Shown: in pieces, positions 2,198 to 20,933 of the stretch
Numbering within the stretch: position 1 is the stretch's first letter
How the letters are laid out: each line of letters starts with the position of its first letter
Source: Planctomycetota bacterium
Lineage (GTDB): Bacteria; Planctomycetota; Planctomycetia; Pirellulales; Pirellulaceae
Length of the DNA stretch: 50,057 nucleotides
Assembly: GCA_014381825.1 (NCBI GenBank)
Contig: JACNKX010000236.1
Coordinates: forward strand, 1-50,057
Reading direction: 5' to 3'
The notes under the pieces: generated by a model
What the model was told of the DNA's origin: nothing
Seen by the model: only the letters and a program-made list of their open reading frames with translations
The model's database searches: none
Translations under genes and position numbers: made by a program

Positions 2198-2270
2198 ATC
2201 GCGGTAGGGACCGCCATTGCTGGCGGCCCCCCGCACAGATCCGTACGTGAAGAATTACCTCATACGGCTC
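2198..2270 (-). ncRNA. Group II intron domains V and VI (catalytic ribozyme core)
   Basis: On the minus strand GAGCCGTATGAGG (from 2270) pairs with the distal CACGTACGGATC (to 2238). This gives the 33-34 nt domain V hairpin with the catalytic AGC triad in GAGCC. It is followed by a G-rich/C-rich domain VI hairpin (GGGGGGCCGCCAGC ... GGCGGTCCC) ending in CTACCGCGAT at the splice site. One base pair near the foot of domain V (G opposite A) departs from the usual GAGCC/GGUUC pairing. The RT stop codon falls inside domain V. Confidence 0.82.
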
Positions 2271-3759
2271 CTACCTTGAGTCGGGCACCGAATCGTTGGT
2301 TGGGATAGGGGTGCATGATGTGAGGTTTGGGAAGATACGTCTGGGCCAAGCGTTTCATTCGCGCCCAGGTCCAACGCTGCTTTCCTTTTTGACTCCGTTC
2401 ACGAATTACGTGAAGCCAGAGTCGAATAACCTCATTGACGAAACGGTTGATACGCTGGGTGTTTCCAGGAACGGCATAATATTGTAGCCAGCCCTGCACG
2501 ACCGACCTCAACCACCGCGCCGTCTCGCCCAGCGGGCGATGCATGCGTTTGCGAAGCTGTGCCTTGATGGCTGCGAGCGTCGCACGCACACGTTTGGCGA
2601 TAGAATAACGTCGAATCGTGAATCTACCATGCGCTCTCGTCTTCGAGCAGAAATGTGTGAAGCCAAGAAAATCAAACGAGTCAGGGCGTCCATCGCCACG
2701 CCGCTTTCGATTATCGATCGCGTAACGACCGAACTCGATCAGACGCGTTTTACCTTCGTGTAGCTTCAAACCGAACTTGGCGAGACGAGTTCGGAGTGCC
2801 TCCAAACAAGCCTGTGCCTCAGAATGAGACTGGAAACCAATCACGAAATCGTCCGCGTAGCGGACGATCACGACGTCGCCCCGGCAGCGGTGAGTCCGCC
2901 ACCAATGCACCCAAAGGTCCAAGACATAATGCAGGAACACATTTGCAAGTAACGGTGAAGCCACCGCTCCTTGAGGTGTACCTATGGTTGTCTCTGACCA
3001 CACTCCTTCGTCGCTGACCCCGGCACGAAGCCATTTCAGGATCAGTCGAAGGAGACGTTGATCGCCGATGCGGTGTTCCAGAAACTTGATTAACCATTCA
3101 TGGTCAATCGCATCAAAGAAACCTTCGATGTCAGCGTCCAACACCCAGCTCACGCGTTTGCTAGTCAGGGCGACAGATAATGCGTCCAACGCTTGATGAC
3201 ATCCTCGACCAGGCCGAAAGCCATAGCTAAATCCGAGGAAGTCTTGCTCGTAGATGGATTGCAGTACCCACACCACCGCTTGCTGGACAACCTTGTCCTC
3301 CAAGGAGGCAACACCCAGTGGTCTCTGCCGTCCATCGGGTTTGGGAATCCAAACTCGACGTGACGGCTGAGCCCGATAGGCTCCACGGTGAACACGATCA
3401 TGGAGGTCCCGAATGTTCTCCTCCAAGTTTCGCTCGTAATCGTGCCAAGTCACTCCATCGACACCGATGGCTGCATTTCGCTTGAGCTCATAGAAGCTCT
3501 CGATTAGCAGTCGCTCGCTGACATGGTGCAACAAGGCTGTGAAACGGAGCGTGCTGTCCTTGCGGGCAGCTTGACGCACGCCGTTGAGACCGCGTGACCT
3601 GCATTGAACCCGACTCTGTGTTCGGCACAGGTTGGCCTGCTCAGCGTTCCTCTTGGTTGGATCCCTTTCCTCCACCGACTCCGCCGATGCTTCGGGAGCA
3701 ACGTTGTTCGTCGACTTCGCAGGTACTATGGATCCATCTGACTTCCCATCGGCGTTCAT
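2260..3759 (-). CDS. ltrA: Group II intron reverse transcriptase/maturase
   Basis: The 499-residue intron-encoded protein has the reverse transcriptase blocks in order: RQRPLGVASLEDKVVQQAV (about 144-162), FLGFSYGFRPGRG (about 174-186), LDADIEGFFDAIDH (about 207-220), GTPQGAVASPLLANVFLHYVLD (about 260-281), the catalytic RYADDFVIGF (YADD at 301-304) and LHEGKTRLIEFGR. A maturase (domain X) signature follows (VVQGWLQYYAVPGN, about 420-433). No HNH endonuclease domain follows; the protein ends soon after PYPNQRFG, so this is an endonuclease-less type. The start chosen is the ATG at 3759 (MNADGKSDGSIVP, a familiar N-terminus of this subgroup), preceded by AGGTGG. A frame upstream to 3921 is open but overlaps ribozyme sequence. 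The stop overlaps domain V, as is common. Confidence 0.93.
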   Translation of the reverse strand: MNADGKSDGSIVPAKSTNNVAPEASAESVEERDPTKRNAEQANLCRTQSRVQCRSRGLNGVRQAARKDSTLRFTALLHHVSERLLIESFYELKRNAAIGVDGVTWHDYERNLEENIRDLHDRVHRGAYRAQPSRRVWIPKPDGRQRPLGVASLEDKVVQQAVVWVLQSIYEQDFLGFSYGFRPGRGCHQALDALSVALTSKRVSWVLDADIEGFFDAIDHEWLIKFLEHRIGDQRLLRLILKWLRAGVSDEGVWSETTIGTPQGAVASPLLANVFLHYVLDLWVHWWRTHRCRGDVVIVRYADDFVIGFQSHSEAQACLEALRTRLAKFGLKLHEGKTRLIEFGRYAIDNRKRRGDGRPDSFDFLGFTHFCSKTRAHGRFTIRRYSIAKRVRATLAAIKAQLRKRMHRPLGETARWLRSVVQGWLQYYAVPGNTQRINRFVNEVIRLWLHVIRERSQKGKQRWTWARMKRLAQTYLPKPHIMHPYPNQRFGARLKVGAV

Positions 3760-4158
3760 GTCAGCATTACCACCTGAGATGTTTGCTGACCGTTCCTGCC
3801 TGCGATACAGACAGGAAACCAATGGGATCTCCCGGTTCTCGCGTTTGGAGTTTCCAGACATGCACAGGTTCTTCGACTCCGCCGCGTCACTTCCAGGCTC
3901 GCCACTAGCGCCCAGTTGCATATTGCCTTCCCATCGCCATTATGTGGTCGGCACGCGAAACGAAGATTTCGGAGTTCTATAGCTGGCCTGTCTGTTCCTC
4001 TTACCAATGCTACACCCAAGACGTCACCGTCAACGGCGTATGGTTCGAGGTCGGAGTGACGGGCTAGGTCTTCTCCGTAGGACTCTTTCATTCCTGACTC
4101 CAAACCGGTTTAGCCCGGCGCTTTCAATAGCACTTAGTTATCCGGAAGTTGTTCGCAC

Positions 4159-5296: not shown

Positions 5297-6220
5297 ATGT
5301 CAACGGCGATTCGACTCGATCAAGTCACTAAACGCTTCGGTTCGCAACTCGCGTTAGACAATGTGTCACTCGAGGTTGCCCCAGGCAATGTGTTCGCGCT
5401 GCTCGGTGAGAATGGCGCTGGCAAGTCGACGACCATACGACTTTTACTCGGGCTCACAGAACCTGACTCGGGACACGCGTCGGTGTTCGGATTGGAAAGC
5501 GTCGCGCACTCGCTCGAGATCCGCCGCTGTGTCGGTTACGTTGCTGAGCGACCAACGCTATACGACTGGATGACGGTCGACGAAATCGGCTGGTTCACGG
5601 CGGGCTTTTATGGCGGCAACTTTAGAGCGACATACAACGAGTTAATTGAGCGATTCACGCTGCCCGCGCACAAAAAGCTTAAGACTCTCTCCAAGGGTAT
5701 GCGAGCCAAAGTCGCGTTGGCGCTGTCGATGGGGCACGATCCAGACTTGCTGATTCTGGATGAACCGACTTCCGGATTGGACACGATGATTCGTCGCGAG
5801 TTCCTGGAAAGCATGGTCGATCGCGCCGCATCGGGTAAGACTGTCTTTCTCTCCAGCCACCAGATTCACGAGGTCGAGCGAGTTGCCGACGTCGTCGGCA
5901 TTATGCGTCAAGGAAAGCTTATCGTCGTCGAACGCTTGGAGAAGCTGAAGGCTGAAGTGCAAGAGCTGACGATCACGTTATCTGATTCGTCGGCCGTGCC
6001 TCCATTGGTCGCTGGCGAGTTACTTCGTCAACGTCGCCGCTCTCGTCAGTGGCAGTTGCTTGTACGCAACGGCGAACGCGAATCCCTCCAGCAACTGAGC
6101 GAACACGATTCGGTCGTGCACGTCGAGGTGCGAACGCCCAGCCTGGAAGAGATTTTCGTCGCATACATGCGAAACGATGGTGGGAGTTCCAATACAGAAG
6201 CAGTTGAACAATTGGTTTAA
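5297..6220 (+). CDS. ABC transporter ATP-binding protein (ABC-2 type exporter)
   Basis: This is a 307-residue nucleotide-binding subunit. It has Walker A GENGAGKS (37-44), a Q-loop region around GYVAERPTLYDWMTV, a signature motif written LSKGMRAK (131-138, in place of LSGGQ), Walker B DLLILDEPTSGLD (150-162) and the switch histidine in SSHQIHEVERVADVVG. The C-terminal 90 residues match the accessory tail of drug/antibiotic and YtrB/CcmA-like ATPases. It starts two bases after the GntR stop, and the permease start is 67 bases downstream, so it should energise that permease. By analogy with YtrA-linked systems, a role in envelope or antibiotic stress is plausible but not shown. Confidence 0.95.
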   Translation: MSTAIRLDQVTKRFGSQLALDNVSLEVAPGNVFALLGENGAGKSTTIRLLLGLTEPDSGHASVFGLESVAHSLEIRRCVGYVAERPTLYDWMTVDEIGWFTAGFYGGNFRATYNELIERFTLPAHKKLKTLSKGMRAKVALALSMGHDPDLLILDEPTSGLDTMIRREFLESMVDRAASGKTVFLSSHQIHEVERVADVVGIMRQGKLIVVERLEKLKAEVQELTITLSDSSAVPPLVAGELLRQRRRSRQWQLLVRNGERESLQQLSEHDSVVHVEVRTPSLEEIFVAYMRNDGGSSNTEAVEQLV

Positions 6221-6287
6221 AAGTAGCCATCACGCTCGGTCACGTTCGCTACTGATACAAGTCACTATCCCAACCGGATACGGCAAC

Positions 6288-9194
6288 ATGAATTCAGCAA
6301 TTTTTTGGCGTTTGGTCTGGAAAGAATACCGCCAACAACAGTCGCTTTGGATCGCCATTGCTCTGGCAGGTTTGATCTTTCAAGTTGCAATGCTGGTCTA
6401 CTGCTCGCTGTACGGCATTACTGGGTTGCCAGAAAAACTGTTCACGATCGCCTTGAGTGTGCCCGTCCTCTATTCGCTTGGTTGCGGAGCAACGTTGTTC
6501 GCCGGAGAGCACGAATCTGAAACATTCTCCTTTCAGCAATCGCTGCCAGTCAGCTCGGGGCACGTCTTTCGTGCCAAGTTTGCCTTCGCTGTAATAAGCG
6601 GGCTGCTGTTATTTCCAATACTTTGGCTATTGGCATTTGCGATGACGAGCTGGACGCTTCCCGAGGCGAACTGGCATCTACAACTTTGGGGAGGAGGAAT
6701 TGTCGCAACGATCGAAGTCTTGATCTGGGCTGTCTTGGGCTCACTATTAATACGCCGAGTCTTGCCAGCGGCTATCGCTGGCGGTGTTGCGGCCGGATTA
6801 CTTGGCTATGGATCACTAGTGGTAACGATCGTGCTTGAACGTACGATCGGACAGCGTGCCAATGAATATATCGCGACGCTACCCCTCCGTATGTGCTTCG
6901 CGCTTCTCGCGTTTGTGATCTCCATAAAGCTTGGTCGTCAATGGTTCAGTGAACACCCGATGCGATGGCGATCAAGTGCGAGGCGACGGCTCCGACTAGG
7001 AGCCGCATCCGCTCAACGCACAACGCCTACGACAACATTCACCATCTTCGCGCGACTCGTGTGGCACCAATGGCGACAGTGTCGAGCGACAATGCTGTGG
7101 TGTATCGCGGGATACGTCGTACTTTGCACGTGGTTCACACTCACCCAAGACGGCGGCGACGCGTTCCTCGGCTTGTTGCCTGCGCTTGCCACGATCTTCG
7201 GAGCCAGCGTCTTCGCGGCAGACCAGCGTCAGGAGCGATATCAGTTCTTCACGGAGCACGGAGTTCGCCCTCGACTCATGTGGTGGTCGCGACAGGCCGT
7301 TTGGGGCGTTGCACTGGCGGTGATCGCAATTTTTGCATTCACGCTGCTAGTTTCTGAAGAATGGCGTGCGAGTTCCAGACACCAAACTCTGTTCGAATTC
7401 GTACTCTACTCCGTCTTGGCATTTTCCGCGGGGCAGATTTGCTCGATCCTCATTCGTAGCGCCATCGTCGCGATCTTTACAGCGGTCTTCAGTACGATAC
7501 TTCTTGGTCTTTGGGTGGCCTTCACACAACGCCTTGGAATAATCTGGATCTTTTCGGCGTTACCATTGATGCTCGTTATGTTTTGGGCCAGTTGGCTGTA
7601 CGCGCCGAAGTGGATTCAACAGCGTTACACGTGGCGCGTACGAATCACGACAGCCGCCACGATCATCGTGCCGCTGATCGGCATCGTTGCAGGAACAGCA
7701 GCGTATCGCGTGTACGAAATACCCGCGATTGAGCCGTCCTTCAATCCGACGCTTCCGGAATACGATCGTTCACCTGCGGCGCGCGAGACAGCTGCGATGT
7801 ACGAGAAGGCCAAAGGCTTGCTGCGAAATCGACTCGGTGTCAGCGAAAATGGCGCGACGAACGTCGCACCTCGCGACGACCAGTGGCAACAGGGACTCGA
7901 CACCTTCCTCGCCGCAACCAAACGCCAAACGTGCCGTTTCTACCATTGGGACGACGACGCAACGGGAAAACTATTCGACGGACAACAGCTCACGCAAAAC
8001 GTGATCGCGGAAGCAAAAGCTCGAATTGATGAAGGTGATGTCGACGGTGCTTGGGAACTCTACGTGGGCGTCCTGCAACTCGCGGCGCATTTCTATCAGC
8101 AACAATCGGAAGCCGCGTACCGAATTGCCGGCATGAATACGGAAGAGAAACTCTACGCCGCTCTGCCCGCCTGGGCCGACCATGAATCGCTAACGCCCGA
8201 ACGGCTCCGGGATGCGGTGATCGAGCTGCAAACTTGGTCCAACAACAACGCGATCGATTGGGAGCAGAGCGTTCTCGAACATCGCTACAACTCGCAACAA
8301 GTCCTCGCGCTCGATGAACGCGTCATGAAAGTCCACTACGAATTTGATGCTACGAATCGAGCTGCGATGAAGACGCTTGGTGTCTTGCTTCCTTGGGAGC
8401 GAGCAAGAATGGTGAGGCTTTTGGACATTTATACCGAAACTGAACTGCAAGGTATTCGGATGATACGCGAGCGCGGGCCGCGAATCCCGCCGCACTCGCA
8501 AGCCACTTTGCCGTGGGACGTCCAACTGACGTTGAAAAACGGCGAGCGAAAACTCATTCGAAGTACGGAATCCGAAATGTGGATGCTTACGTCGTTGTGG
8601 CTTTCGTCAACTTCGCCACAGTTTGCGGCGAACTACGTTGCTTGGGAGCAGGAATATCAAGTTCGTCGAAACGCCGTTCAACAGCAGCTCGCGCTAATCG
8701 CATGGCGGAAGCAGCATGAACGGCTTCCAGACACCCTGCGAGAGTTGAAGGGAAGTCCATTCGACAATCTGCCGCTCGACCCATATACGAATCAGCCCTT
8801 CGTCTATTTTCCAAACGGCGTTGATGAAGAAGTATGGGACGATGGCTATATTGGAATAGGTGGGATGATGATGGGTGGCTTCGGCGAAGGCATGGAATCC
8901 GCGGCGGGCACAGACGACGCCGAATGGAAACCACCGAAGCCAAAGCTCGTACGTTCCGAGCCATTTCTCTGGAGTCCCGGGAAAGGCCTGCGATACGCCC
9001 CCGCCAGCTCTCGTGTCCTGTCGGATTCGCCAATGGCAGGCGACTTTCGAGATCAATCAGGAAACACGCTAACGGACACGAATCTGTTGCACCAGGGACT
9101 GCGCTATCCGATTCCTACGCTGGAGCAACCCGAAACAAAACAGCAGCCGTCCGACTCTTCCGACAACGCCGACGCCTTGCCTGCTGGCGAGTGA
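6288..9194 (+). CDS. ABC-2 permease, internally duplicated and fused to a large C-terminal extension
   Basis: This 968-residue protein starts at MNSAIFWRLVWKEYRQQQ. An in-frame extension upstream to 6177 overlaps the ATPase gene and looks non-coding. The first roughly 500 residues hold about a dozen hydrophobic helices in two similar halves. The first opens with FWRLVWKEYRQQQSLWIAIA and continues to ATLFAGEHESETFSFQQ. The second opens with FARLVWHQWRQCRATMLWCIAGY and continues to ASVFAADQRQERYQFF. From about residue 520 onward lies a soluble helical extension of about 430 residues. It includes LIAWRKQHERLPDTLRELKG and LPLDPYTNQPFVYFPNG, a pattern often seen in planctomycete proteins. The tail is likely extracytoplasmic or cytoplasmic depending on helix count, which I cannot settle. 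It pairs with the upstream ATPase. Confidence 0.85.
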   Translation: MNSAIFWRLVWKEYRQQQSLWIAIALAGLIFQVAMLVYCSLYGITGLPEKLFTIALSVPVLYSLGCGATLFAGEHESETFSFQQSLPVSSGHVFRAKFAFAVISGLLLFPILWLLAFAMTSWTLPEANWHLQLWGGGIVATIEVLIWAVLGSLLIRRVLPAAIAGGVAAGLLGYGSLVVTIVLERTIGQRANEYIATLPLRMCFALLAFVISIKLGRQWFSEHPMRWRSSARRRLRLGAASAQRTTPTTTFTIFARLVWHQWRQCRATMLWCIAGYVVLCTWFTLTQDGGDAFLGLLPALATIFGASVFAADQRQERYQFFTEHGVRPRLMWWSRQAVWGVALAVIAIFAFTLLVSEEWRASSRHQTLFEFVLYSVLAFSAGQICSILIRSAIVAIFTAVFSTILLGLWVAFTQRLGIIWIFSALPLMLVMFWASWLYAPKWIQQRYTWRVRITTAATIIVPLIGIVAGTAAYRVYEIPAIEPSFNPTLPEYDRSPAARETAAMYEKAKGLLRNRLGVSENGATNVAPRDDQWQQGLDTFLAATKRQTCRFYHWDDDATGKLFDGQQLTQNVIAEAKARIDEGDVDGAWELYVGVLQLAAHFYQQQSEAAYRIAGMNTEEKLYAALPAWADHESLTPERLRDAVIELQTWSNNNAIDWEQSVLEHRYNSQQVLALDERVMKVHYEFDATNRAAMKTLGVLLPWERARMVRLLDIYTETELQGIRMIRERGPRIPPHSQATLPWDVQLTLKNGERKLIRSTESEMWMLTSLWLSSTSPQFAANYVAWEQEYQVRRNAVQQQLALIAWRKQHERLPDTLRELKGSPFDNLPLDPYTNQPFVYFPNGVDEEVWDDGYIGIGGMMMGGFGEGMESAAGTDDAEWKPPKPKLVRSEPFLWSPGKGLRYAPASSRVLSDSPMAGDFRDQSGNTLTDTNLLHQGLRYPIPTLEQPETKQQPSDSSDNADALPAGE

Positions 9195-9237: not shown

Positions 9238-10329
9238 CTAAATATCTAATTCGTCGAGACCATCGATCAAATCATCGAGTTCATCTCGCGGTTCTTCAGA
9301 AACACCTTCTTGTCGCTTGCGAATGCCTACGGCCATTCCGACTGCATCGCGGCCCACCATTACCAACTGCTCATCGCGTTCAAGTGCTGCCATCTCTTCG
9401 GCGGATTTTCCCTCGTCCGGTGCGCCGAACAGCTTGGATAGGTCAATCTTCAATCCAACGAGACCGACAGGAGCCCCCGCGATCGCAGGTGTCTTGTGCT
9501 GCGGGAACATGATCGCGTTTTCTGGACAGACGCGACTGCACGCAGGACATCCCTTGCGACAGTTGTCGGGCTGTTCGACCAGAATCGTTTCTACTCGATC
9601 GACTCCGTAGACACCAAACAGGCAGAAGTCGATGCATTCCATGCAGTTCGTGCAACGACTGTAATCGATCACTGGATACCATCTGCGGTCACCCGTCTCT
9701 TCGATGCGGATGATGTCCGTCGGTTGAAGCGGTACGTCGTCAGCTTCTTCGGGACGGCTCTTTCCGTTTCCGTTACCGCCGAGCGCTGTAGTGTTCGTTG
9801 GGTTAACAAATCGCTCTAACTGCTCGGGCTTTGCCACACCTTGAAGCCAATCGCCGAGTTGCACGAGCTTCTGCGTACTCTCATCCGCAATACGCTTGAT
9901 CTCGTCGATATATGGTTGCGCGGTATGGTGAACACGAAGGTCAACGCAGTAAATCCGGCGATTCGGAATATCTCGCTGATCGATCACCCGAGCTTTGGCA
10001 TCATCTGCCGCAGCATTCTCCTCGTCGTCTTTATCTTCGTCGTCTGCTTTGATGAGCGTTTGACCTTCTTGGCCGCAAATATTATTGCGATCGAGAATCC
10101 ACCGCGCGCCCCGTTCATAAAGCCAAGACAAGACGATCATGTTGCCTTTGATCCCGTCCAACGCCAGCATCCCTGTCCCATCGGGCTTTAGATCATACAA
10201 GTGCGGGATGACCGTAACATCGACGCCCGGCTCCATGATGAGAGCCGCAACGATATCTTCTTCGAGCCCGCGTTTCGCCGGGTTTTGGCTTTGTCCTTGA
10301 GATACGACGACTGCGATTCGTTTGGCCAT
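9238..10329 (-). CDS. Ferredoxin-family protein, 2[4Fe-4S], with a large N-terminal domain
   Basis: The 363-residue protein contains two cysteine clusters. These are CTNCMECIDFC (Cys 226, 229, 232, 236) and CRKGCPACSRVCP (Cys 257, 261, 264, 268), typical of a bacterial 2[4Fe-4S] ferredoxin fold with a longer linker between clusters. The first 90 residues (MAKRIAVVVSQGQSQNP, VTVIPHLYDL, MIVLSWLYERGARWIL) look like an alpha/beta domain of unknown function. An acidic linker follows (about 95-113). The C-terminus is also acidic. It is the last gene of a seven-gene minus-strand cluster, 4 bases downstream of the GcvH-like gene. It probably supplies or accepts electrons for an enzyme of the cluster, perhaps the radical SAM protein. 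The partner is inferred. Confidence 0.85.
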   Translation of the reverse strand: MAKRIAVVVSQGQSQNPAKRGLEEDIVAALIMEPGVDVTVIPHLYDLKPDGTGMLALDGIKGNMIVLSWLYERGARWILDRNNICGQEGQTLIKADDEDKDDEENAAADDAKARVIDQRDIPNRRIYCVDLRVHHTAQPYIDEIKRIADESTQKLVQLGDWLQGVAKPEQLERFVNPTNTTALGGNGNGKSRPEEADDVPLQPTDIIRIEETGDRRWYPVIDYSRCTNCMECIDFCLFGVYGVDRVETILVEQPDNCRKGCPACSRVCPENAIMFPQHKTPAIAGAPVGLVGLKIDLSKLFGAPDEGKSAEEMAALERDEQLVMVGRDAVGMAVGIRKRQEGVSEEPRDELDDLIDGLDELDI

Positions 10330-10333
10330 GACG

Positions 10334-10789
10334 TTAGTTCAATTGTCCCTTGATAGTTCGTTGAGTCACTTCCCACACCGCCTCTAAGTGCTTGATGTAA
10401 TCGGCGGCCGACAGTAACCCGTTGCTACTTCCTTCGATCTCGAATAACCAACCATCTCCATATTTGTCTACGTTGATCGTTGAAGGATCAGAAAGCAAAT
10501 CATCGTTGAATCTTGGTAAGTATCCGGAAATCGGCGAGTACAAAGCGCTTTCGGCCTTTTTACTCTCAATGGCTCCCATCTCTTGTTTTTCAGCCAACGT
10601 GACTCCCGCATCGACTGACCACTCCAAAAAGTAGACGTCCTGCAACAGCCTCACAGCATACGCAGTGAACCCAAAACGATAGCCGCCTTCGGGCGACGTC
10701 ATCGCCCACATGTGGTTCTTCGCGTACTGTCGGTCCGTCGGAATGATCGCCTCGAACTCTCCCATCATAAACACCAAGTCGTCGCTCAT
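10334..10789 (-). CDS. GcvH-like lipoyl carrier protein
   Basis: The 151-residue protein has the H-protein layout. YAKNHMWAM corresponds to the YTKEHEWV region, and YRFGFTAYAVRLLQDVYFLEW to the GITDYAQ..LGDIV..EL region. GAIESKKAESALYSPISGYL holds the lipoylation site, with Lys78 aligning to the modified lysine. Canonical H proteins of about 130 residues shuttle the methylamine group in glycine cleavage. None of the GcvP, GcvT or Lpd genes is nearby, and the protein is longer and divergent, so it may carry another thiol-bound group, as lipoate-binding proteins of sulfur-oxidation systems do. The start overlaps the radical SAM stop by 4 bases (ATGA) and AAGGGG precedes it, so the two are translationally coupled. 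The ferredoxin gene follows after 4 bases. Confidence 0.85.
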   Translation of the reverse strand: MSDDLVFMMGEFEAIIPTDRQYAKNHMWAMTSPEGGYRFGFTAYAVRLLQDVYFLEWSVDAGVTLAEKQEMGAIESKKAESALYSPISGYLPRFNDDLLSDPSTINVDKYGDGWLFEIEGSSNGLLSAADYIKHLEAVWEVTQRTIKGQLN

Positions 10790-12090
10790 GTATAGCGCAC
10801 CCCTTGATGCTCCTCCTCGAAGAACGGCGGCAACAGCGCATCTGCATGTAGCAAGCCCTTTCGAGTCAACTCGATCCGGTCACCATCGACCGTCAACATG
10901 CCGTCTTCCGCGTGCATCTCCCAAACGTCATTCCACTCAACCAACACTTCCGTTCCGAATTTATTTCGGAAGTAGTCGGCATCCAGATAGCCACGTTTCA
11001 GAAGCAGGATCACTTCACGGACGAGCAACTGATGCTTCGACGGTCGGAGGCCACGACCGAGAGGAAGCTTACCGTCGGCCAACGATCCAATGTAGTCCTT
11101 CCACTCCGGCAAGTTCTGGTAATGCACGCCCGAGATGTGTCCAAAACTGGCAATGCCTGTGGCAAGCAGATCAGAACCACCAAACAAGTTGTCTCGATAG
11201 CTGAAGTTCACCTTCTCGGGATCTTTCACCATCGTGTACGCACTCGACCCGTGATAGCCAGCACTCGACAGTTCGTCGAAGGCATAATCTACCCAAGCTC
11301 GCTTCGTCGGCCAATCCGCAACCGGCGTCTCAATGGCGTTACCGAGAATGTCCTTTGAGTAAACCGTGTTGTATGGCAACTCCATCTGGTAAATCGTGAC
11401 GCTCTCGGGCGACAGTTCGATCGTCTTGCGAATGTTCTCTTTCCAGTTATCCCACGTCTCGCCAACCATCCCGGAAATGAGATCGATGTTCACGTTAGGA
11501 AACTGTGCCGCCGTGATCCACTCCCAGCATTTATAGACTTCGCCGGAGAGATGAGCACGACCGTTCTCTTTCAGAATCTCATCGTTGAAATTCTCGATAC
11601 CGAGACTCAAGCGAGTCACTCCTAACTGGCGGATCGCGTGAACTTTGGGCTCGGTTAACGTGCCTGGCTCGCACTCGAAAGTCACTTCTTCCGCTTTGTC
11701 CCAGTTGATGTTCGCACGAAGCCGATCCACAAGTGAGGTGAGCTGTTTCGCGCTCAAAAACGATGGAGTACCGCCACCAAAATAGACGAAACGAAACGGA
11801 CGATCGCCCATGACCGGCTGTTTGCTGACGAGTTCGATCTCAGTCGATAGAGCCGAGACGTACTCTTCAATCTCGCTTGCCTTGTTTTCTGTGAAGACTT
11901 TGAAGTAACAGAATTTACACCGTTTGCGACAGAACGGGATGTGGAGATAAAGACCTAGCGGCACATCCGCTGGCGGCGCGGCCATCGCGGCTTGAACATC
12001 CGGCAAATTGTCTTTCGACCATTGCGAAAACGGCGGATAATTCGAGATGAAGTAACTGCCAACTTCAGTCTTGACTGAATCAGTTGCCAC
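10786..12090 (-). CDS. HemN/HemW-like radical SAM protein
   Basis: The 434-residue protein carries the radical SAM cluster motif CRKRCKFC (Cys 54, 58, 61) in the context LYLHIPFC, and the HemN-family signature VYFGGGTPSFLSAKQL. SLGIENFNDEILKENGRAH matches the conserved GVQSFNDEVL..GR.H segment. A C-terminal HemN-type winged-helix region follows (VREVILLLKRGYLDADYF). The family includes coproporphyrinogen dehydrogenase, the heme chaperone HemW and the anaerobic heme-degrading ChuW/HutW enzymes. The residue after the third cysteine is Tyr-Phe, so the fourth cysteine of true HemN (CxC) is absent. Linkage to a lipoyl carrier and ferredoxin rather than heme genes argues against plain heme synthesis. 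It begins with GTG and has only a weak ribosome binding site, so the start is uncertain. Confidence 0.87.
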   Translation of the reverse strand: MATDSVKTEVGSYFISNYPPFSQWSKDNLPDVQAAMAAPPADVPLGLYLHIPFCRKRCKFCYFKVFTENKASEIEEYVSALSTEIELVSKQPVMGDRPFRFVYFGGGTPSFLSAKQLTSLVDRLRANINWDKAEEVTFECEPGTLTEPKVHAIRQLGVTRLSLGIENFNDEILKENGRAHLSGEVYKCWEWITAAQFPNVNIDLISGMVGETWDNWKENIRKTIELSPESVTIYQMELPYNTVYSKDILGNAIETPVADWPTKRAWVDYAFDELSSAGYHGSSAYTMVKDPEKVNFSYRDNLFGGSDLLATGIASFGHISGVHYQNLPEWKDYIGSLADGKLPLGRGLRPSKHQLLVREVILLLKRGYLDADYFRNKFGTEVLVEWNDVWEMHAEDGMLTVDGDRIELTRKGLLHADALLPPFFEEEHQGVRYT

Positions 12091-12188
12091 GAGTCACCGC
12101 GCTTTCATTGAATACGCTAAATCAGTAAGAAGGCACGAAGCCAAACGACTCGCTCTCACTCGAATTAAGGATTTCCGTCGGTACCGCA

Positions 12189-13313
12189 TTAGGACGCCTT
12201 TTCCCCAAAGCAGTACACGACACCATCGTCGCTCGCAATTACAAGCTTACCGTCTACGACGGCTGGCGAACCAGTGAAGCCGCCGCCCGCTTCATACTCC
12301 CATTCCTTCTCGCCACTTTTTCGATTCAAACCGTAGATCCGTCCATCCGTTGAACCAATATAGACTCGATCACCAACGATGATCGGCGACGAATCAATCC
12401 GCTGCTTGGCCGCGAAAGTCCATAGCTCCTCGCCGCTCTTTGGGTTCAGCGAGTGAACGCGTTTGGCACGGCTGCCCACAACGATCTGCTCAGTCGATGC
12501 AGCGGCAGAGCTGCGATACGACGTGTTGCTCTTCCCTGAGAACGTCCAGGCGACGGATGCTTTCCTCCAGTTAACGCACAGGAACTCGCCGCCTTCAGTC
12601 CCAAAGTAAACGAAATCACCGACGACCGCCGGGGTAACTCCCGTCGGCCCCCCGATCTCAACCTGAGCAAGGTCCTTCCCGTCATTTAGGTCGAGAATGT
12701 GCAGCTTGCCATCGCAACCGGCGAGAAAGACACGATCTTCAACGATCGTTGGACTGCAACGAATCTGATCGTCAATCATGTGTTTCCAAACCAGATCGCC
12801 GGTCTTTGCTCCCAGGCAATACAGCGTCGCGTCCTGCGAACCGACGAGGACGTTGCCTTTGTAGAAGTTGGCGCACGAATCGATTTCGGCTTGCGTATCA
12901 AAACCCCACCGCAACTTGCCGCTGGCCGCGCCCAGGCAATAGAACCGACCATCATAGTCACCGATGTAGACCAATCCGTCGCGAACTGCCGGCGACGCGA
13001 TGAACCCAGCCTCCGTCTCGTACTCCCACTTCTTCTCGCCGGTATTCAGATTGAGCGCATAAACAGAACCGTCGAGATCACCGATGTACGCAACGTCACC
13101 TTCAATCGCCGCCGTTCCTTCAAACGCTCCGTCTTTGACTTCGAACTTCCAGAGTAACGAAAGCTTGGTTGGAAGCGTGGCGTTGGCGACTCCAGTTGCA
13201 TGAGAGTTTCCGCGGAACAGCGGCCATCCCTTTTCGACTGTCTCCGCAGCGACTGGGGCACACAGACAGACAACCAATGTCAGGCTAAGGCTGATTCGTG
13301 GAATTACTCGCAT
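12189..13313 (-). CDS. Secreted PQQ-type beta-propeller protein
   Basis: This 374-residue protein has a clear signal peptide (MRVIPRISLSLTLVVCLCAPVAAE, cleavage after about 23). Tandem blades of the PQQ-like repeat follow: KEGD/GD-VY-ALN-TGEKKWEYE, FIASPAVRDGLVYIGDYDGRFYCLGAASGKLRW, GSQDATLYCLGAKTGDLVWK and similar, about seven blades in all. No catalytic insert of quinoprotein dehydrogenases (such as a disulfide ring of adjacent cysteines) is visible, so it more likely binds or scaffolds than oxidises alcohols. It is preceded by GGAG. It lies between the alcohol dehydrogenase and radical SAM genes of the minus-strand cluster, suggesting a periplasmic partner of that pathway, which is inference only. 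Confidence 0.9.
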   Translation of the reverse strand: MRVIPRISLSLTLVVCLCAPVAAETVEKGWPLFRGNSHATGVANATLPTKLSLLWKFEVKDGAFEGTAAIEGDVAYIGDLDGSVYALNLNTGEKKWEYETEAGFIASPAVRDGLVYIGDYDGRFYCLGAASGKLRWGFDTQAEIDSCANFYKGNVLVGSQDATLYCLGAKTGDLVWKHMIDDQIRCSPTIVEDRVFLAGCDGKLHILDLNDGKDLAQVEIGGPTGVTPAVVGDFVYFGTEGGEFLCVNWRKASVAWTFSGKSNTSYRSSAAASTEQIVVGSRAKRVHSLNPKSGEELWTFAAKQRIDSSPIIVGDRVYIGSTDGRIYGLNRKSGEKEWEYEAGGGFTGSPAVVDGKLVIASDDGVVYCFGEKAS

Positions 13314-13392
13314 TTGTCATAACTCCGGAATTCGACTTCGTGGGAAGCAAGGCCGCATAAATGCGGAACTGCAAACATGACGACTTATTGTA

Positions 13393-14544
13393 TCAGAACG
13401 CTTGTCGATACAGGCCCAAAAGCTCGGGCTCGCCCACTTCGCGGGGGTTGAAAGTGCCGGTCCATTGAGTCGCCGCAGCTGCGGCCAGGTCGGACAGTTT
13501 GGCTTCCTCGACGTTTCGATCAGGCAAACACGTCGCAAGCCCGGCCTTCTCGACCAGCGATGCAACGAACTCCGCAAGACCCTCGGGACCGCTATTCGGT
13601 CGTGGCATTCCGTTGTCGTCGCAACTAGCTTCGAGCAGTTCACGATACCAACCATCGTGTTTCTCGCCGTTGAATCGAATGACGTGCGGCAACATCATGC
13701 CGATCGCTTCGCCATGCACAATGCCATAGGTCGCGGTCAGCGGATTGGCGAGCGCATGAGTCGCTCCAAGCATTGAGTTCTCGATCGCAACGCCCGCATA
13801 GGTCGAACCGAGTTGCATGGCCGCTCGCGCGTCCAAGTCAGATGGATCGTCTATCACGCGACCGAAGTTCGCAGCCAGCAAACGCCAAGCTTCGCGACTG
13901 TAAAGCAACGAGACAGGATTGCGCGGCTTCGTGACGTAAGTCTCCAGCGCGTGGGCGATCGCATCGATTCCGGTCAATGCCGTGACGCGAGGAGGCTGCG
14001 TCAGGGTGAGCTTTGGATCAAGGATCGCAATTCGGCACGAGGCTTTCTTGTCGCCGCAGGCCATCTTGGCGTGGGTCTTCGCGTCCGAGATCAACGCAAA
14101 AGATTGTGTCTCGCTGCCGGTGCCCGACGTTGTCGGCACGGCGATCATGGGAAGCATCGGCTTCAGCGCTTTGCCGACTCCCCAATAATCCTGCATCTGG
14201 CCGCCGTTGCTGTATAAGAAATTGATCCCCTTAGCGCAGTCCATCGAACTGCCGCCGCCAAGCCCTACTAAGACTTCCGGATCGTGTCGTTTGGCGAGCG
14301 CAACGCCTTTGTCGACGTCATCAGTGGATGGATTCTCGTGAACGCCCTCGAACAGGTGAGCTTCGATGCCAGCTCGTTTCAAGGCATCGAGCCCACGCTC
14401 CGTGTGTCCGGCCGCAATGACTCCCGAATCACTAACGACGAGCGCGCGTCTGGCTCCCAACTCCGATGCCAACTCTCCAAGCTTCTCGATCGTGTCAGGA
14501 CCGAAGACGATTCGCGTACGCAGCTGGAAATCGAATGGAGTCAT
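13393..14544 (-). CDS. Iron-containing alcohol dehydrogenase
   Basis: The 383-residue protein belongs to the group III (Fe-dependent) NAD(P)-linked alcohol dehydrogenases. It shows RIVFGPDTIEKLGEL at the start, the nucleotide-binding GLGGGSSMDCAKGI, MIAVPTTSGTGSETQSFALIS, and the metal-binding helix region TGIDAIAHALETYVT (Asp, His) continuing to GATHALANPL and GIVHGEAIGMMLPHVI (further His ligands). The reaction is interconversion of an alcohol and an aldehyde or ketone. The ATG at 14544 is preferred over a TTG at 14556 because AGGTG lies 9 bases before it. Next to an aldehyde dehydrogenase and an acyl-activating enzyme, it probably handles the aldehyde/alcohol step of the same route. Confidence 0.92.
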   Translation of the reverse strand: MTPFDFQLRTRIVFGPDTIEKLGELASELGARRALVVSDSGVIAAGHTERGLDALKRAGIEAHLFEGVHENPSTDDVDKGVALAKRHDPEVLVGLGGGSSMDCAKGINFLYSNGGQMQDYWGVGKALKPMLPMIAVPTTSGTGSETQSFALISDAKTHAKMACGDKKASCRIAILDPKLTLTQPPRVTALTGIDAIAHALETYVTKPRNPVSLLYSREAWRLLAANFGRVIDDPSDLDARAAMQLGSTYAGVAIENSMLGATHALANPLTATYGIVHGEAIGMMLPHVIRFNGEKHDGWYRELLEASCDDNGMPRPNSGPEGLAEFVASLVEKAGLATCLPDRNVEEAKLSDLAAAAATQWTGTFNPREVGEPELLGLYRQAF

Positions 14545-14619
14545 GACACGCAACACCTAAGGAGGCAAACGACTGACGACGGTCAATCATCTATTGTAAT
14601 AACGCCAATCGCGATTTCA

Positions 14620-16056
14620 TTACAAAGCCGCTTGTGCCTCTTCCGTTACTTGGTACGCACGCGAGCGGAAGAGGAAGTCGATGATGCTGCCTTCGTGAGG
14701 CTGCAACCAGTTTAGTCGGCTTGTCGGAATGGGTCCGATATTCAGTCGATCAATGTGAGTGGCGTTAGTCAGCTGGTCAATCAATTGCTCGTTGTTCGTA
14801 ATGGCGCTGCAGACCAAAGTCGGTCCGATCTTTGCCAGCATCTGACTTTCGGGACACTCCACAACAGTTGAAAATGGGAACATATATTCCTTCTTTGCGA
14901 TCTCGCGTTCCGACGAATCGCAGTGGACGACCATCGGTCGCAAGTACGAACAATGTTCTTGCTCGACGAGCCGTTCGCCGTATTGCTCGGTCATGTCCGT
15001 GACACCAGCTTCTTTGAGATCGGCCTCGATCATTCCCCAAACTGCTTTCCCCATACCTGGAATCGTGAAAGCAGCGAGTCCCGCTTCGGGGTCTGTCGGA
15101 GGTTTGGCTTCGATCGGTCCGATCTTCTCGGCGATCGCCTGAGCGATTTCCTTCGTATGACGCGATGCCCAAATCCCCGAACAGTTAATACATCCACGAC
15201 CGCTGTTGATGTAGATGCTCTCGACCATCAAGTCGAGATACTTCTCCCAATCGTCGACGCAATCGTCGGCCAGCAATATCTTCGAGAAGCCTGGACCATG
15301 CGCTTGAACATTCGGGTTCCCTTTGTATCGTTCGACGGTTGGAGTACCACCGAAAATCATGGCTCGCTCCGAGGCGTTCAGAACGGCGGCACCGGCTTCC
15401 GGCCCGCCTGGATACATGGCGAACACTTCCTTCGGGATACCGGCTTCAACAAACGCGGACATCATTCGGTATGGCGTCCACGGTTCCTGCGGACCAGGTT
15501 TCAGCACCAGGCCCATCTGTAGCGGAATCGCGGGGAGCCAAAGCGTGTGGACGCCAGGTGAGTTTGATGGAAGCACGGCGCTCAGCGCTGACGCTTGGGC
15601 TTGGTAGCTCAGGACGACCCCGCGATCTTCAATGCCGTAGCCGCGCGTCAGGATGTTCAAGTCCAAGCCGCGCGTGAGGCAGTCGAGAATCTGCTGCATA
15701 TTGCGAAGCACAAACGAGTTCTTCGACATGTTGTGTCGACACATGTGCTCCGGCAGACCGGTGCTGGCCGACTGTTGATGAGCGAACTCGGCCGGCGTCT
15801 GCGTGCCATCACCGATTGGAAGCGTCGCGCTCTCGTAGAGATCGGCGGCCTTCTTCAGAATCTCGATGATCTCACTGCACGGGATCTGGCGGAGCGTGTC
15901 GCGCGCCTTGCCGACTTGACGCATGTCTCGCGAGATAATGCCCGCGTTCGCTTGGCTAACTTTCGCGATTGGTTCGCCAGTCGCAAAATGCAATACGTCG
16001 TCGATCTCTAGCGAATCGTAAGGCTTGCCCCAACGGATCACGGGAATATTGAGCAC
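14620..16056 (-). CDS. Aldehyde dehydrogenase family protein, acylating-type features
   Basis: The 478-residue protein has the aldehyde dehydrogenase fold elements. These are SNSPGVHTLWLPAIPLQMGLVLKPGPQEPWTPYRM (cofactor and oxyanion region), MIFGGTPTVERY (Rossmann segment), and YINSGRGCINCSG with the presumed catalytic Cys289. The glutamate of the usual LELGGK motif is replaced; the matching segment reads AHGPGFSK (about 252-259). Loss of that general base is characteristic of CoA-acylating aldehyde dehydrogenases and acyl-CoA reductases such as LuxC-like enzymes. The natural reaction may therefore be acyl-thioester to aldehyde, or the reverse. The start is GTG, with GGAG 6 bases upstream. 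It lies between a PaaK-like enzyme and an alcohol dehydrogenase, which fits a three-step acid-aldehyde-alcohol route. Confidence 0.85.
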   Translation of the reverse strand: MLNIPVIRWGKPYDSLEIDDVLHFATGEPIAKVSQANAGIISRDMRQVGKARDTLRQIPCSEIIEILKKAADLYESATLPIGDGTQTPAEFAHQQSASTGLPEHMCRHNMSKNSFVLRNMQQILDCLTRGLDLNILTRGYGIEDRGVVLSYQAQASALSAVLPSNSPGVHTLWLPAIPLQMGLVLKPGPQEPWTPYRMMSAFVEAGIPKEVFAMYPGGPEAGAAVLNASERAMIFGGTPTVERYKGNPNVQAHGPGFSKILLADDCVDDWEKYLDLMVESIYINSGRGCINCSGIWASRHTKEIAQAIAEKIGPIEAKPPTDPEAGLAAFTIPGMGKAVWGMIEADLKEAGVTDMTEQYGERLVEQEHCSYLRPMVVHCDSSEREIAKKEYMFPFSTVVECPESQMLAKIGPTLVCSAITNNEQLIDQLTNATHIDRLNIGPIPTSRLNWLQPHEGSIIDFLFRSRAYQVTEEAQAAL

Positions 16057-16126
16057 AGGTTTCTCCGAGATTGTTAATAAGTTTCAGGGTCAGATGTGTG
16101 ACAGATTTGGCAGCAAGTGATCTGTT

Positions 16127-16208
16127 GTTTAACGGCAAGCCGAAGGCGACTGCGTCTTTGCAAAGCGCGTCCCTGTAAAACGCAGTCGCCTTCGGCTTGC
16201 CGTTAAAC
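16127..16208. repeat. Perfect 29-bp inverted repeat with 24-base loop (long hairpin)
   Basis: The left arm (16127-16155, beginning GTTTAACGGCAAGCCG) is exactly the reverse complement of the right arm (16180-16208). The loop contains a further 10-base palindrome, CTTTGCAAAG (16156-16165). The hairpin begins 14 bases past the stop of the acyl-activating gene and lies 70 bases before the aldehyde dehydrogenase start. It could therefore end transcription, protect the upstream mRNA, or be a small palindromic repeat element. No run of T follows, so a classical terminator is not favoured. Confidence 0.9.
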
Positions 16209-16222
16209 GAAATTTCAACTTT

Positions 16223-17353
16223 CTAATAGACGCCGACAGTCGTGCCGGACGCCGTCTCGTGGAACGGACGCACGCCGCTCACTCCATCCCACGGGTACGT
16301 GGCAAACGGCTTCTCACGTTCACCCTCGTCTCGCTCAAGGAAACCAGGCACAAAGAGTTCTTTGGTCAGCGTTGTCAACTTAACGCGGCCTGTTTCTCCG
16401 TAGCCCACCAGTTCTTTCGGGTCGTCGAAGCTAACAACTTCCGTGACGGCTCGAGGCTGCGGAGCGTAGTAAGAAATCTTGTATCCCTCTTCGGCGGTGA
16501 CGGGCTTGCTACAAGCCAATCCCATCAGAGTATTACCGTAAGTCGGTGTCATGTAGATACCGCTCTCTGCCGGCGGACCACCGAAGAACTCTTCGACACA
16601 GAATCGTGTCCACTGAGGCGTGAACTCCGTGCCGCCCGAGAAGATACCGGTGATCCCGGTATCCTTGAACGTCTTGCCCTGCTCTTCCAATGCGTTGCAA
16701 AGTCCCTCGAGCAACTTGGGCGTGGCGAACATACACTTGATGTCGTGATTGGCAGACAGAAGCGTCAGCACTTGATCGATACAATGCTTCTTGTACTCTT
16801 CGAGATGTTCCATCCATCCCTTTTTGATCAACTTCACGACCCAACGCGGATCGAGGTCGATGCAGAAGCAGATGCCGCCGCGATGCTGACACAAATGCTC
16901 GACTGCCAATCGCAGCCGCCGCGGACCGGAAGGCCCGAGCATCAACCAGTTCGCTCCCTTCGGAAAATACTCGTCCGGCAACGTATCGCTAAAGAGTTCG
17001 TAATCCGTCCAATGATCTTCAATGACCATGCGACTCTTCGGAATACCAGTCGTGCCACCTGTCTCAAAGACGTAAACCGGCTTCCCTGCCAGCCCCTTGG
17101 GCACCCAGCGATTGATCGGTCCGCCACGTAGCCACTCGTCTTCAAAGAGCGGAAACTTCTTGATGTCGTCGAAGTTCTTGACGTCGGTCATCGGATCAAA
17201 GTTCAGACCGGCTTTCTTTTCGAGCCAGAACGGCGATCCGGTCGACTCGTGAAAGTGCCACTGGATGGTCTCGTAAGCGTGTGCGTCGAGTCTGTCTTTC
17301 GCTTCTTTTTGGAGTGACTCGATATCAGCGGTTGAAGATTCCGCAGTACTCAT
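16223..17353 (-). CDS. PaaK-like acyl-activating (adenylate-forming) enzyme
   Basis: The 376-residue protein belongs to the phenylacetate-CoA ligase/LuxE-type adenylating group. It shows VFETGGTTGIPKSRMV (ATP-binding loop, 95-110), FPKGANWLMLGPSGPRRLR, GITGIFSGGTEFTPQW, the PTYGNTLMG segment corresponding to the YG.TE motif, and the GETGRVKLTTLTKELFVPGFLERDEGE tail. It is about 60 residues shorter than typical PaaK, and the C-terminal rotating domain is reduced. Acyl-AMP formation with transfer to a protein or small thiol is as likely as standard CoA ligation. ATG is preceded by AGGA. It is the first gene of the seven-gene minus-strand cluster and should feed an activated acyl group to the downstream aldehyde dehydrogenase. 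Confidence 0.82.
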   Translation of the reverse strand: MSTAESSTADIESLQKEAKDRLDAHAYETIQWHFHESTGSPFWLEKKAGLNFDPMTDVKNFDDIKKFPLFEDEWLRGGPINRWVPKGLAGKPVYVFETGGTTGIPKSRMVIEDHWTDYELFSDTLPDEYFPKGANWLMLGPSGPRRLRLAVEHLCQHRGGICFCIDLDPRWVVKLIKKGWMEHLEEYKKHCIDQVLTLLSANHDIKCMFATPKLLEGLCNALEEQGKTFKDTGITGIFSGGTEFTPQWTRFCVEEFFGGPPAESGIYMTPTYGNTLMGLACSKPVTAEEGYKISYYAPQPRAVTEVVSFDDPKELVGYGETGRVKLTTLTKELFVPGFLERDEGEREKPFATYPWDGVSGVRPFHETASGTTVGVY

Positions 17354-20465: not shown

Positions 20466-20933
20466 TTACGTCTGATTTGCCGGAGTGTTAATCGTACTCA
20501 GTTGCGAAAGCACCTGGAGCACACCGTTCAGATGGGCAAGTCGGGGGCCAAATCGATCGACAAACTCGTTCAACATAAACTCGCCATCCAGCAAGCATTC
20601 CTCATTATCGAGGACTTCGTCGGTCAGATTACGAAGAAACTGAGTCTGAACACGGCTCAACGTCTCTGAAGCCGTACGACAGCAGCGAGCCAAATCTGGA
20701 TTCGCGTCTTTCCACTGCCCAAGTTCGTTCTGGCGTTGGCGTTGTGTTGCGTTTTGTTGTTGGATGAAATCCTCCAACAGTTTGCTTTGCTTTGCCTGCC
20801 CAGCCACCAATTGCCGCATAAGAGCCACAACAACGGTATTGGGGTCGTAACTATCCGCTGGTGTCGCGGAACCGGTGTCAGCCGAGACATCGATACGAAA
20901 CAGGGGAGGAAACTCGTTCGACTCACTAGACAT
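20466..20933 (-). CDS. Conserved hypothetical protein with coiled-coil region
   Basis: This 155-residue acidic protein is not recognised as a named family. It is rich in long helices. After a disordered start (SSESNEFPPLFRIDVSADTGS) comes DPNTVVVALMRQLVAGQAKQSKLLEDFIQQQNATQRQRQNELGQW, a heptad-like stretch. A second helical segment follows (RTASETLSRVQTQFLRNLTDEVLDNEECLLDGEFMLNEFVDRFGPRLAHLNGVLQVLSQL). It runs away from the 191-residue gene at 21254 across a 320-base divergent promoter region. A structural or adaptor role is possible. The frame is well supported by length and amino-acid composition, but the function is open. Confidence 0.7.
   Translation of the reverse strand: MSSESNEFPPLFRIDVSADTGSATPADSYDPNTVVVALMRQLVAGQAKQSKLLEDFIQQQNATQRQRQNELGQWKDANPDLARCCRTASETLSRVQTQFLRNLTDEVLDNEECLLDGEFMLNEFVDRFGPRLAHLNGVLQVLSQLSTINTPANQT

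Follow-up and report, generated by a model that had tools for sequence, protein, structure and literature searches.

We analyzed a 50,057-nucleotide stretch of contig JACNKX010000236.1 from a Planctomycetota bacterium (assembly GCA_014381825.1), hereafter the window, in which seven genes, running from an adenylating enzyme to a ferredoxin, lie on the minus strand between positions 9238 and 17353. Two co-inherited modules, called A and B below, meet in these genes. The seven form part of a larger set, some fifteen gene families in all, that appears to be undescribed; the members tested are inherited together in the Planctomycetota, and the seven-gene coordinates cut through the set. The seven genes are as follows.

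16223..17353, minus strand: EhpF-like adenylating enzyme of the PaaK/ANL superfamily ("PaaK-like"); module A
14620..16056, minus strand: acylating-type aldehyde dehydrogenase (ALDH), with Cys289 kept and His253 at the site of the general-base Glu; module A
13393..14556, minus strand: Fe-dependent alcohol dehydrogenase (Fe-ADH); module A
12189..13313, minus strand: pyrroloquinoline quinone (PQQ)/BamB-like beta-propeller, secreted-looking; module A
10786..12090, minus strand: HemN/HutW-like radical S-adenosylmethionine (SAM) protein, with CxxxCxxC and without the fourth HemN cysteine; module A
10334..10789, minus strand: GcvH-like protein with a lipoyl lysine, not the best GcvH of the genome; module B
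9238..10329, minus strand: two-cluster ferredoxin with an N-terminal alpha/beta domain; module B

The gaps from the PaaK-like gene to the radical SAM gene are 166, 63, 79 and 98 bases; the radical SAM and GcvH-like genes overlap by 4 bases, and 4 bases separate the latter from the ferredoxin gene. A preliminary description of this DNA had given the same genes, order, strand, gaps and overlap, and its family names agree with our domain scans, the emphasis having changed only for the "PaaK-like" enzyme, whose nearest solved relative is EhpF. Pfam matches above the curated cut-offs were obtained for the ALDH, Fe-ADH, propeller, Radical_SAM, GCV_H and [4Fe-4S] ferredoxin regions, while no NCBIfam equivalog scored above its cut-off for the Fe-ADH.

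Co-inheritance in the Planctomycetota

Distribution was determined in an evenly drawn sample of 199 Planctomycetota genomes of varying completeness, representing 80 families. Module A comprises the EhpF-like enzyme, ALDH, Fe-ADH, propeller and HemN-like radical SAM protein together with a chorismate-lyase-fold protein and a halogenase-like flavoprotein; module B comprises the GcvH-like protein, the ferredoxin, a DUF116/polyprenyl synthase, a class II cyclase-like protein, a CobW GTPase and a second radical SAM protein. Genome-wide counts cover five of the seven window families (adenylating enzyme, ALDH, radical SAM protein, GcvH-like protein and ferredoxin) together with the chorismate-lyase-like protein and the polyprenyl synthase. 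The cut-offs were an E value below 1e-100 for the adenylating enzyme, under which a wide gap extends to the next best genome at 5.5e-42; an E value of at most 1e-60 for the ALDH and the radical SAM protein; more than 60 bits for the ferredoxin, below which there is a step down to generic ferredoxins; and more than 130 bits for the synthase. With the loosest threshold (E 0.001), the counts out of 199 would rise to 62 genomes for the adenylating enzyme and 81 for the ferredoxin.

The EhpF-like enzyme was found in 45 of the 199 genomes and 22 of the 80 families, and the ALDH in exactly the same 45 genomes. All 44 genomes with the radical SAM protein and all 31 with the chorismate-lyase-like protein lie inside the 45. 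The ferredoxin occurred in 49 genomes and the DUF116-polyprenyl synthase fusion, which marks module B, in 50 (some of them partial), with 48 genomes common to both. Between modules, the EhpF-like enzyme and the ferredoxin occur together in 36 genomes, where 11.1 would be expected (Fisher p 2e-20); at the family level, 19 families are shared, from 22 and 28, against 7.7 expected (p 6e-9). A strict search with the window GcvH-like protein (E at most 1e-22) found 17 genomes, all with module A and the ferredoxin, and more divergent GcvH-like genes adjoin the ferredoxin gene in other loci. The gene arrangement is above chance: five families co-occur far over expectation, and the gene order recurs. 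The preliminary description had asked whether the upstream three and downstream three genes ever co-occur; they do, and across distant genomes.

Gene neighborhoods

In what follows, G000 is the genome of the window, and L and C numbers denote loci and contigs. The order PaaK-like, ALDH, Fe-ADH, propeller, radical SAM recurs in L081, L082 and L139, which belong to distant families, and in part in many other loci. The genes for the adenylating enzyme and the ALDH lie within 3 kb of each other in 37 of 45 genomes, and those for the adenylating enzyme and the radical SAM protein within 10 kb in 20 of 44. Proximity between modules is less frequent: the PaaK-like gene lies within 20 kb of the ferredoxin gene in 6 of 36 genomes (G000, G035, G044, G158, G179 and G188), and the radical SAM and ferredoxin genes are no more than 10 kb apart in 4 of the 35 genomes with both (G000, G061, G121 and G186), so the radical SAM/GcvH junction of the window is not general. 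In G121, from the same family as the window genome, the PaaK-like, ALDH and Fe-ADH genes are separated by approximately 0.8 Mb from the propeller, radical SAM, GcvH-like and ferredoxin genes. Of the nine other genomes of the same class that have the genes concerned, none has the PaaK-like gene within 10 kb of the radical SAM gene, and four have it within 3 kb of the ALDH gene. The recurrence across distant genomes that the preliminary description looked for is seen for the five genes from PaaK-like to radical SAM; the scattering in close relatives that it took as a contrary sign does occur in part, but these genomes retain the genes.

The GcvH-like gene adjoins genes for a CobW GTPase and the ferredoxin in L077, L091 to L099, L101, L102 and L141, and most of these loci add a second radical SAM protein, a squalene-hopene-cyclase-like protein, the DUF116/polyprenyl synthase and a toroid protein. 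In the window genome, the toroid, thioesterase, SSF symporter, cyclase-like, synthase, chorismate-lyase-like and halogenase-like flavoprotein genes lie together on C227, the second radical SAM gene is at C227:184021, and the CobW gene is at C226:262.

To find relatives outside the phylum, the radical SAM alignment was run against a collection of 84,980 species genomes, and flanks of up to 10 kb were inspected around the best 80 of at least 577 loci. These 80, ranked by likeness to a planctomycete sequence so that phylum shares are not a census, include many from Verrucomicrobiota, Planctomycetota and Acidobacteriota and one genome each from Lentisphaerales, Sumerlaeota and Poribacteria. Their flanks contain genes for the chorismate-lyase-like protein (55 loci), propeller (49), flavoprotein (39), Fe-ADH (24), thioesterase (21), glycosyltransferase (18), PaaK-like enzyme (13, of which 12 exceed 90 bits and L155 is weak at 60 bits), ALDH (13), GcvH (10, two of which, in L143 and L144, resemble ordinary GcvH) and ferredoxin (6). 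The radical SAM, GcvH-like and ferredoxin genes are near each other in L177, L204, L208, L216, L218 and L219. The last of these has, on one strand and in this order, ALDH, Fe-ADH, propeller, radical SAM, GcvH-like, ferredoxin, cyclase-like and synthase genes; its GcvH-like and ferredoxin genes are 2.7 kb apart, and its contig ends just before the ALDH.

A second AMP-binding family was seen in 12 of the 80 radical SAM flanks (L148:15884-17176 and 11 other loci), verrucomicrobial, acidobacterial, planctomycete and poribacterial loci being among the 12; the L148 protein has the PaaK-type C-terminal domain AMP-binding_C_2.

Adenylating enzyme and aldehyde dehydrogenase

EhpF pairs with the ALDH EhpG and reduces an aromatic acid to the aldehyde. 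The window enzyme matches EhpF (3hgu/3l2k) at E 4e-40, scores 24.5 bits against Pfam AMP-binding, below the cut-off of 29.9, and has no C-terminal domain detectable in domain scans. EhpF is described as an atypical adenylating enzyme of a phenazine pathway (PMC3175449). No phenazine genes were recognized among the recurring neighbors of our set, although no search was aimed at such genes. A fatty-acid reductase of the LuxE/LuxC type was considered and rejected, as the adenylating enzyme matched EhpF and LuxC/LuxE models were not among the matches listed.

Active-site alignments were built from open reading frames picked by script at each locus, and some loci give no row; for the ALDH, two short rows (L065 and L135) were excluded by length. 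All 22 ALDH rows from the loci retrieved keep the catalytic Cys, and all have His at the site of the general-base Glu, in the motif HGPG or HGTG. Hydrolytic ALDHs carry this Glu (the Glu268 rule), and an acylating, nonhydrolytic ALDH is expected to keep the Cys and lose the Glu; the pattern observed therefore fits an acylating, reductive enzyme. The ALDH profile matched no solved structure at E 1e-20, and a single-sequence search of solved structures gave KauB at E 3.5e-13. Together, the EhpF-like enzyme and the Cys/His pattern lend support to the preliminary proposal of an acid-aldehyde-alcohol gene set.

Radical SAM protein

The CxxxCxxC motif is kept in 22 of 22 aligned proteins. The best NCBIfam models are HutW (189 bits) and the STM4012 family and HemN (180 bits each), far under the curated cut-offs of 400 bits for HutW and 325 bits for HemN. 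The nearest structure is that of HemN (1olt), but the alignment with HemN contains no counterpart of its fourth cysteine. No other protein of the window genome scores above the HemN cut-off. A role for the gene set in heme biosynthesis was rejected on the scores below cut-off, the absent fourth cysteine and the distribution across genomes.

GcvH-like protein and ferredoxin

The lipoyl lysine of the GcvH-like protein is present in 19 of 19 aligned rows, and the window protein has no cysteines. It is not taken as the canonical H protein of glycine cleavage, as it scores 82.4 bits against TIGR00527, under the curated cut-off of 115.85, and a better GcvH match is encoded on C119 of the same genome. 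The ferredoxin retains eight cysteines in 23 of 23 aligned rows. The model of its N-terminal domain has a mean predicted local distance difference test score (pLDDT) of 52, with the first 90 residues in blocks of 70 to 89, and Foldseek matched it best to Pden_5119 at E 0.026, with other flavin reductases lower, which is a hint only. In some families a short gene with CHC and CHRRA motifs directly precedes the ferredoxin gene (L099:10653-11051, minus strand); its product resembles a split-off relative of this N-terminal domain.

The preliminary description had proposed a dedicated thiol/electron system, made up of the carrier and the ferredoxin, for acid-aldehyde-alcohol conversion. In that form the proposal is not supported. 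Their steady partners are instead the genes of module B, the ferredoxin is missing from 9 of the 45 genomes with the reductive module, and 13 of the 49 ferredoxin genomes lack that module. As the two genes travel with module B, a dedicated acid-to-alcohol role is unsupported; the most likely role of the GcvH-like protein is that of a carrier of acyl groups or electrons in module B rather than in the acid-to-alcohol steps.

Additional members of the set

The chorismate-lyase-like protein has approximately 180 residues and no Pfam match, and its gene adjoins the radical SAM gene. A model of the relative from L204 (mean pLDDT 95.2) matched best, among PDB entries, the DUF98 protein 2nwi at E 2e-8, followed by UbiC (1jd3, 1g81 and 1fw9) and GntR ligand domains. 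The sequence profile also found 2nwi among solved structures (E 2e-5), and it touched the nucleoporin Nup50 at E 0.0065, which is noise level. Across 24 rows, Arg76 and Glu174 are invariant and Gly92 is at least 90% conserved; we take these three to be the equivalents of UbiC active-site residues. The predicted fold and the conserved residues are strong, if not conclusive, evidence of a chorismate lyase, which suggests that the acid is a hydroxybenzoate.

The flavoprotein carries the halogenase-type WxWxI(P) motif in 44 of 46 rows. That of L081 has the halogenase CmlS as its best NCBIfam match, at 202 bits against a cut-off of 900; the motif suggests a halogenase-like protein, and related hydroxylases and reductases exist. 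Among the module B proteins, DxDD is present in 20 of 20 rows of the class II cyclase-like protein, among them that of the window genome (L203 contributes a divergent row, perhaps from an ordinary cyclase), and DDxxD is present in 23 of 23 rows of the polyprenyl synthase. The DUF116 part of the synthase fusion (L123:9748-11622 and relatives) has CxxCGxC in 21 of 23 rows. Hopanoid synthesis was rejected as the function of these genes: the cyclase-like protein of L095 scores 115 bits against the squalene-hopene cyclase cut-off of 431, and the second radical SAM protein of L101 scores 35 bits against HpnH, for which the cut-off is 225.

Other features of the window

An ABC transporter ATPase and a 1,005-residue permease-like protein are encoded at 5297-9194 on the plus strand, converging on the 3' end of the cluster; the pair is absent from the list of recurring partners. 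At 20466-20933 on the minus strand lies a gene for a 155-residue protein without a Pfam match, which has a homologue of 48% identity at L063:16196-16648, approximately 5 kb upstream of the PaaK-like gene in a genome of the same family. A reverse transcriptase domain protein (2260-3921, minus strand; RVT_1, 136 bits) possibly belongs to a group II intron or another retroelement. An HpnN-like RND/MMPL transporter (39764-42283, minus strand; TIGR03480, 511 bits against a cut-off of 752) is a relative of hopanoid and sterol transporters and may or may not serve the terpenoid module.

Discussion

Our results suggest, tentatively and with a likelihood that we place a little short of even, that modules A and B are parts of one scattered biosynthetic pathway in which a chorismate-derived aryl acid is reduced to the alcohol and joined to terpenoid chemistry. 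For module A, co-occurrence, active-site residues and the chorismate-lyase fold are what was observed, and from them we infer the substrate. The chorismate-lyase-fold protein, encoded outside the window on C227, would convert chorismate to hydroxybenzoate, which the EhpF-like enzyme would activate as the acyl-adenylate. The acyl group would pass to the cysteine of the acylating ALDH and be reduced to the aldehyde, from which the Fe-ADH would form a benzylic alcohol. Supplied by a ferredoxin, the HemN-like radical SAM protein may perform a carbon-centered step, such as C-methylation or C-C coupling, and the halogenase-like flavoprotein may oxidize or halogenate the ring, while module B would make and modify a cyclized polyprenyl part. 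Where both modules are present, as in the window genome, the end product would probably be an aryl-terpenoid lipid.

Several observations weigh against a single pathway of this kind. Module A is found without the module B ferredoxin, and module B without module A, in the 9 of 45 and 13 of 49 genomes noted above; as each occurs alone, they may be separate pathways. Second copies of the adenylating enzyme are found in G117, G133 and G148 and of the radical SAM protein in G056, G064, G158 and G188. The chorismate-lyase-like protein is missing from 14 of the 45 module A genomes, so the substrate elsewhere need not be hydroxybenzoate, and GntR regulator ligand-binding domains share the chorismate-lyase fold and fill much of its match list. 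In the flanks of the best 80 radical SAM loci, cyclase-like and synthase genes were confined to planctomycete records. A UbiA-type aromatic prenyltransferase was recognized nowhere among the recurring neighbors, a genuine gap in the scheme, although no genome-wide search was aimed at one. Finally, the counts of genomes are not phylogenetically independent, a dependence that counting by family reduces but does not remove.

It is a serious though doubtful possibility that there are two pathways, with module A making a small reduced aromatic compound and module B, including the GcvH-like protein and the ferredoxin, a terpenoid, the two sharing lineages and sometimes a locus but having different products. 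Co-occurrence is near perfect within modules (45 of 45, 44 of 45, and 48 of 49 and 50) as against 36 of 45 and 49 across them, and module A genes occur in phyla in whose flanks neither cyclase nor synthase was seen. However, the sharing between modules is far over chance at both genome and family levels, the PaaK-like and radical SAM genes are sometimes close to the ferredoxin gene (6 of 36 and 4 of 35 genomes at the distances given above), and genes linked to module A elsewhere lie inside the module B locus: those for the chorismate-lyase-like protein, thioesterase and SSF symporter in both the window genome and G121, and that for the flavoprotein in the window genome. Reversal of the reductive steps has also to be considered, as the reactions of Fe-ADH and acylating ALDH are reversible and an SSF symporter (8 of 80 flanks) and secreted propellers (18 of 80) adjoin module A in relatives; an imported alcohol or aldehyde would then be oxidized to an acyl thioester for catabolism. 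We consider this improbable, as the chorismate-lyase-like, halogenase-like flavoprotein, glycosyltransferase and MacB/FtsX-like ABC transporter genes suggest synthesis and the related EhpF belongs to an antibiotic pathway. Least credible of all is that the radical SAM protein acts on porphyrins, as a HemN or HutW, with unrelated neighbors. These are its best named models, HemN is its nearest structure, and the window genome has no better candidate for the HemN role, but the scores and the fourth cysteine speak against it, and presence in 44 of 199 genomes, only alongside the EhpF-like enzyme, is unlike a housekeeping heme gene.

If a single aryl-terpenoid pathway does exist, its fullest form, which we think unlikely, would be a previously unrecognized class of planctomycete membrane or redox lipids, aryl-terpenoid in structure and derived from chorismate, with the aromatic core also made in Verrucomicrobiota, Acidobacteriota and relatives, and would involve carrier-free carboxylate reduction, two radical SAM proteins and a lipoyl protein with a role beyond the metabolism of 2-oxoacids, glycine and sulfur. 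Enzymes of these kinds are known; what appears to be new is how they are combined, how widely they are spread and which genes accompany them. In agreement with the preliminary description, which knew of no characterized pathway with this set, we found no description of it in the literature searched, although subscription papers could hold one. Retention in 22 of 80 families despite frequent splitting into several loci suggests that the set likely matters to the cell. To our knowledge, the lipids and cofactors of these phyla are poorly known, and the present work offers a gene list for study and a product class to seek, hydroxybenzoate-derived and possibly terpenoid. If correct, it would extend the known lipoyl proteins by one whose partners are of a new kind. 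It also advises caution, since genes in these phyla that resemble those for coproporphyrinogen oxidase or GcvH may be something else.

Comparison with known systems

The radical SAM protein shares its fold family and CxxxCxxC motif with HemN and with class C radical SAM methylases such as NocN, but differs in scoring under every curated NCBIfam cut-off listed and in its gene company. The hopanoid (hpn) pathway likewise has a DxDD class II cyclase and a radical SAM protein, with an HpnN-like transporter gene elsewhere in the window. In the sHdr pathway of sulfur oxidation, LbpA is also a GcvH-like lipoyl protein outside glycine cleavage; most LbpA proteins, some archaeal ones excepted, have two strictly conserved cysteines (PMC6067878), whereas the window protein has none. 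Assignment to sHdr sulfur oxidation was rejected on this feature, and no shdr genes were noticed among the recurring neighbors, although no search was aimed at such genes. The EhpF/EhpG step of D-alanylgriseoluteic acid biosynthesis, whose substrate is an aromatic acid, resembles module A in that the gene for an adenylating enzyme with no detected C-terminal domain adjoins an ALDH-family gene; the planctomycete set differs in adding an Fe-ADH, radical SAM proteins and terpenoid genes, and in the phyla in which it is found.

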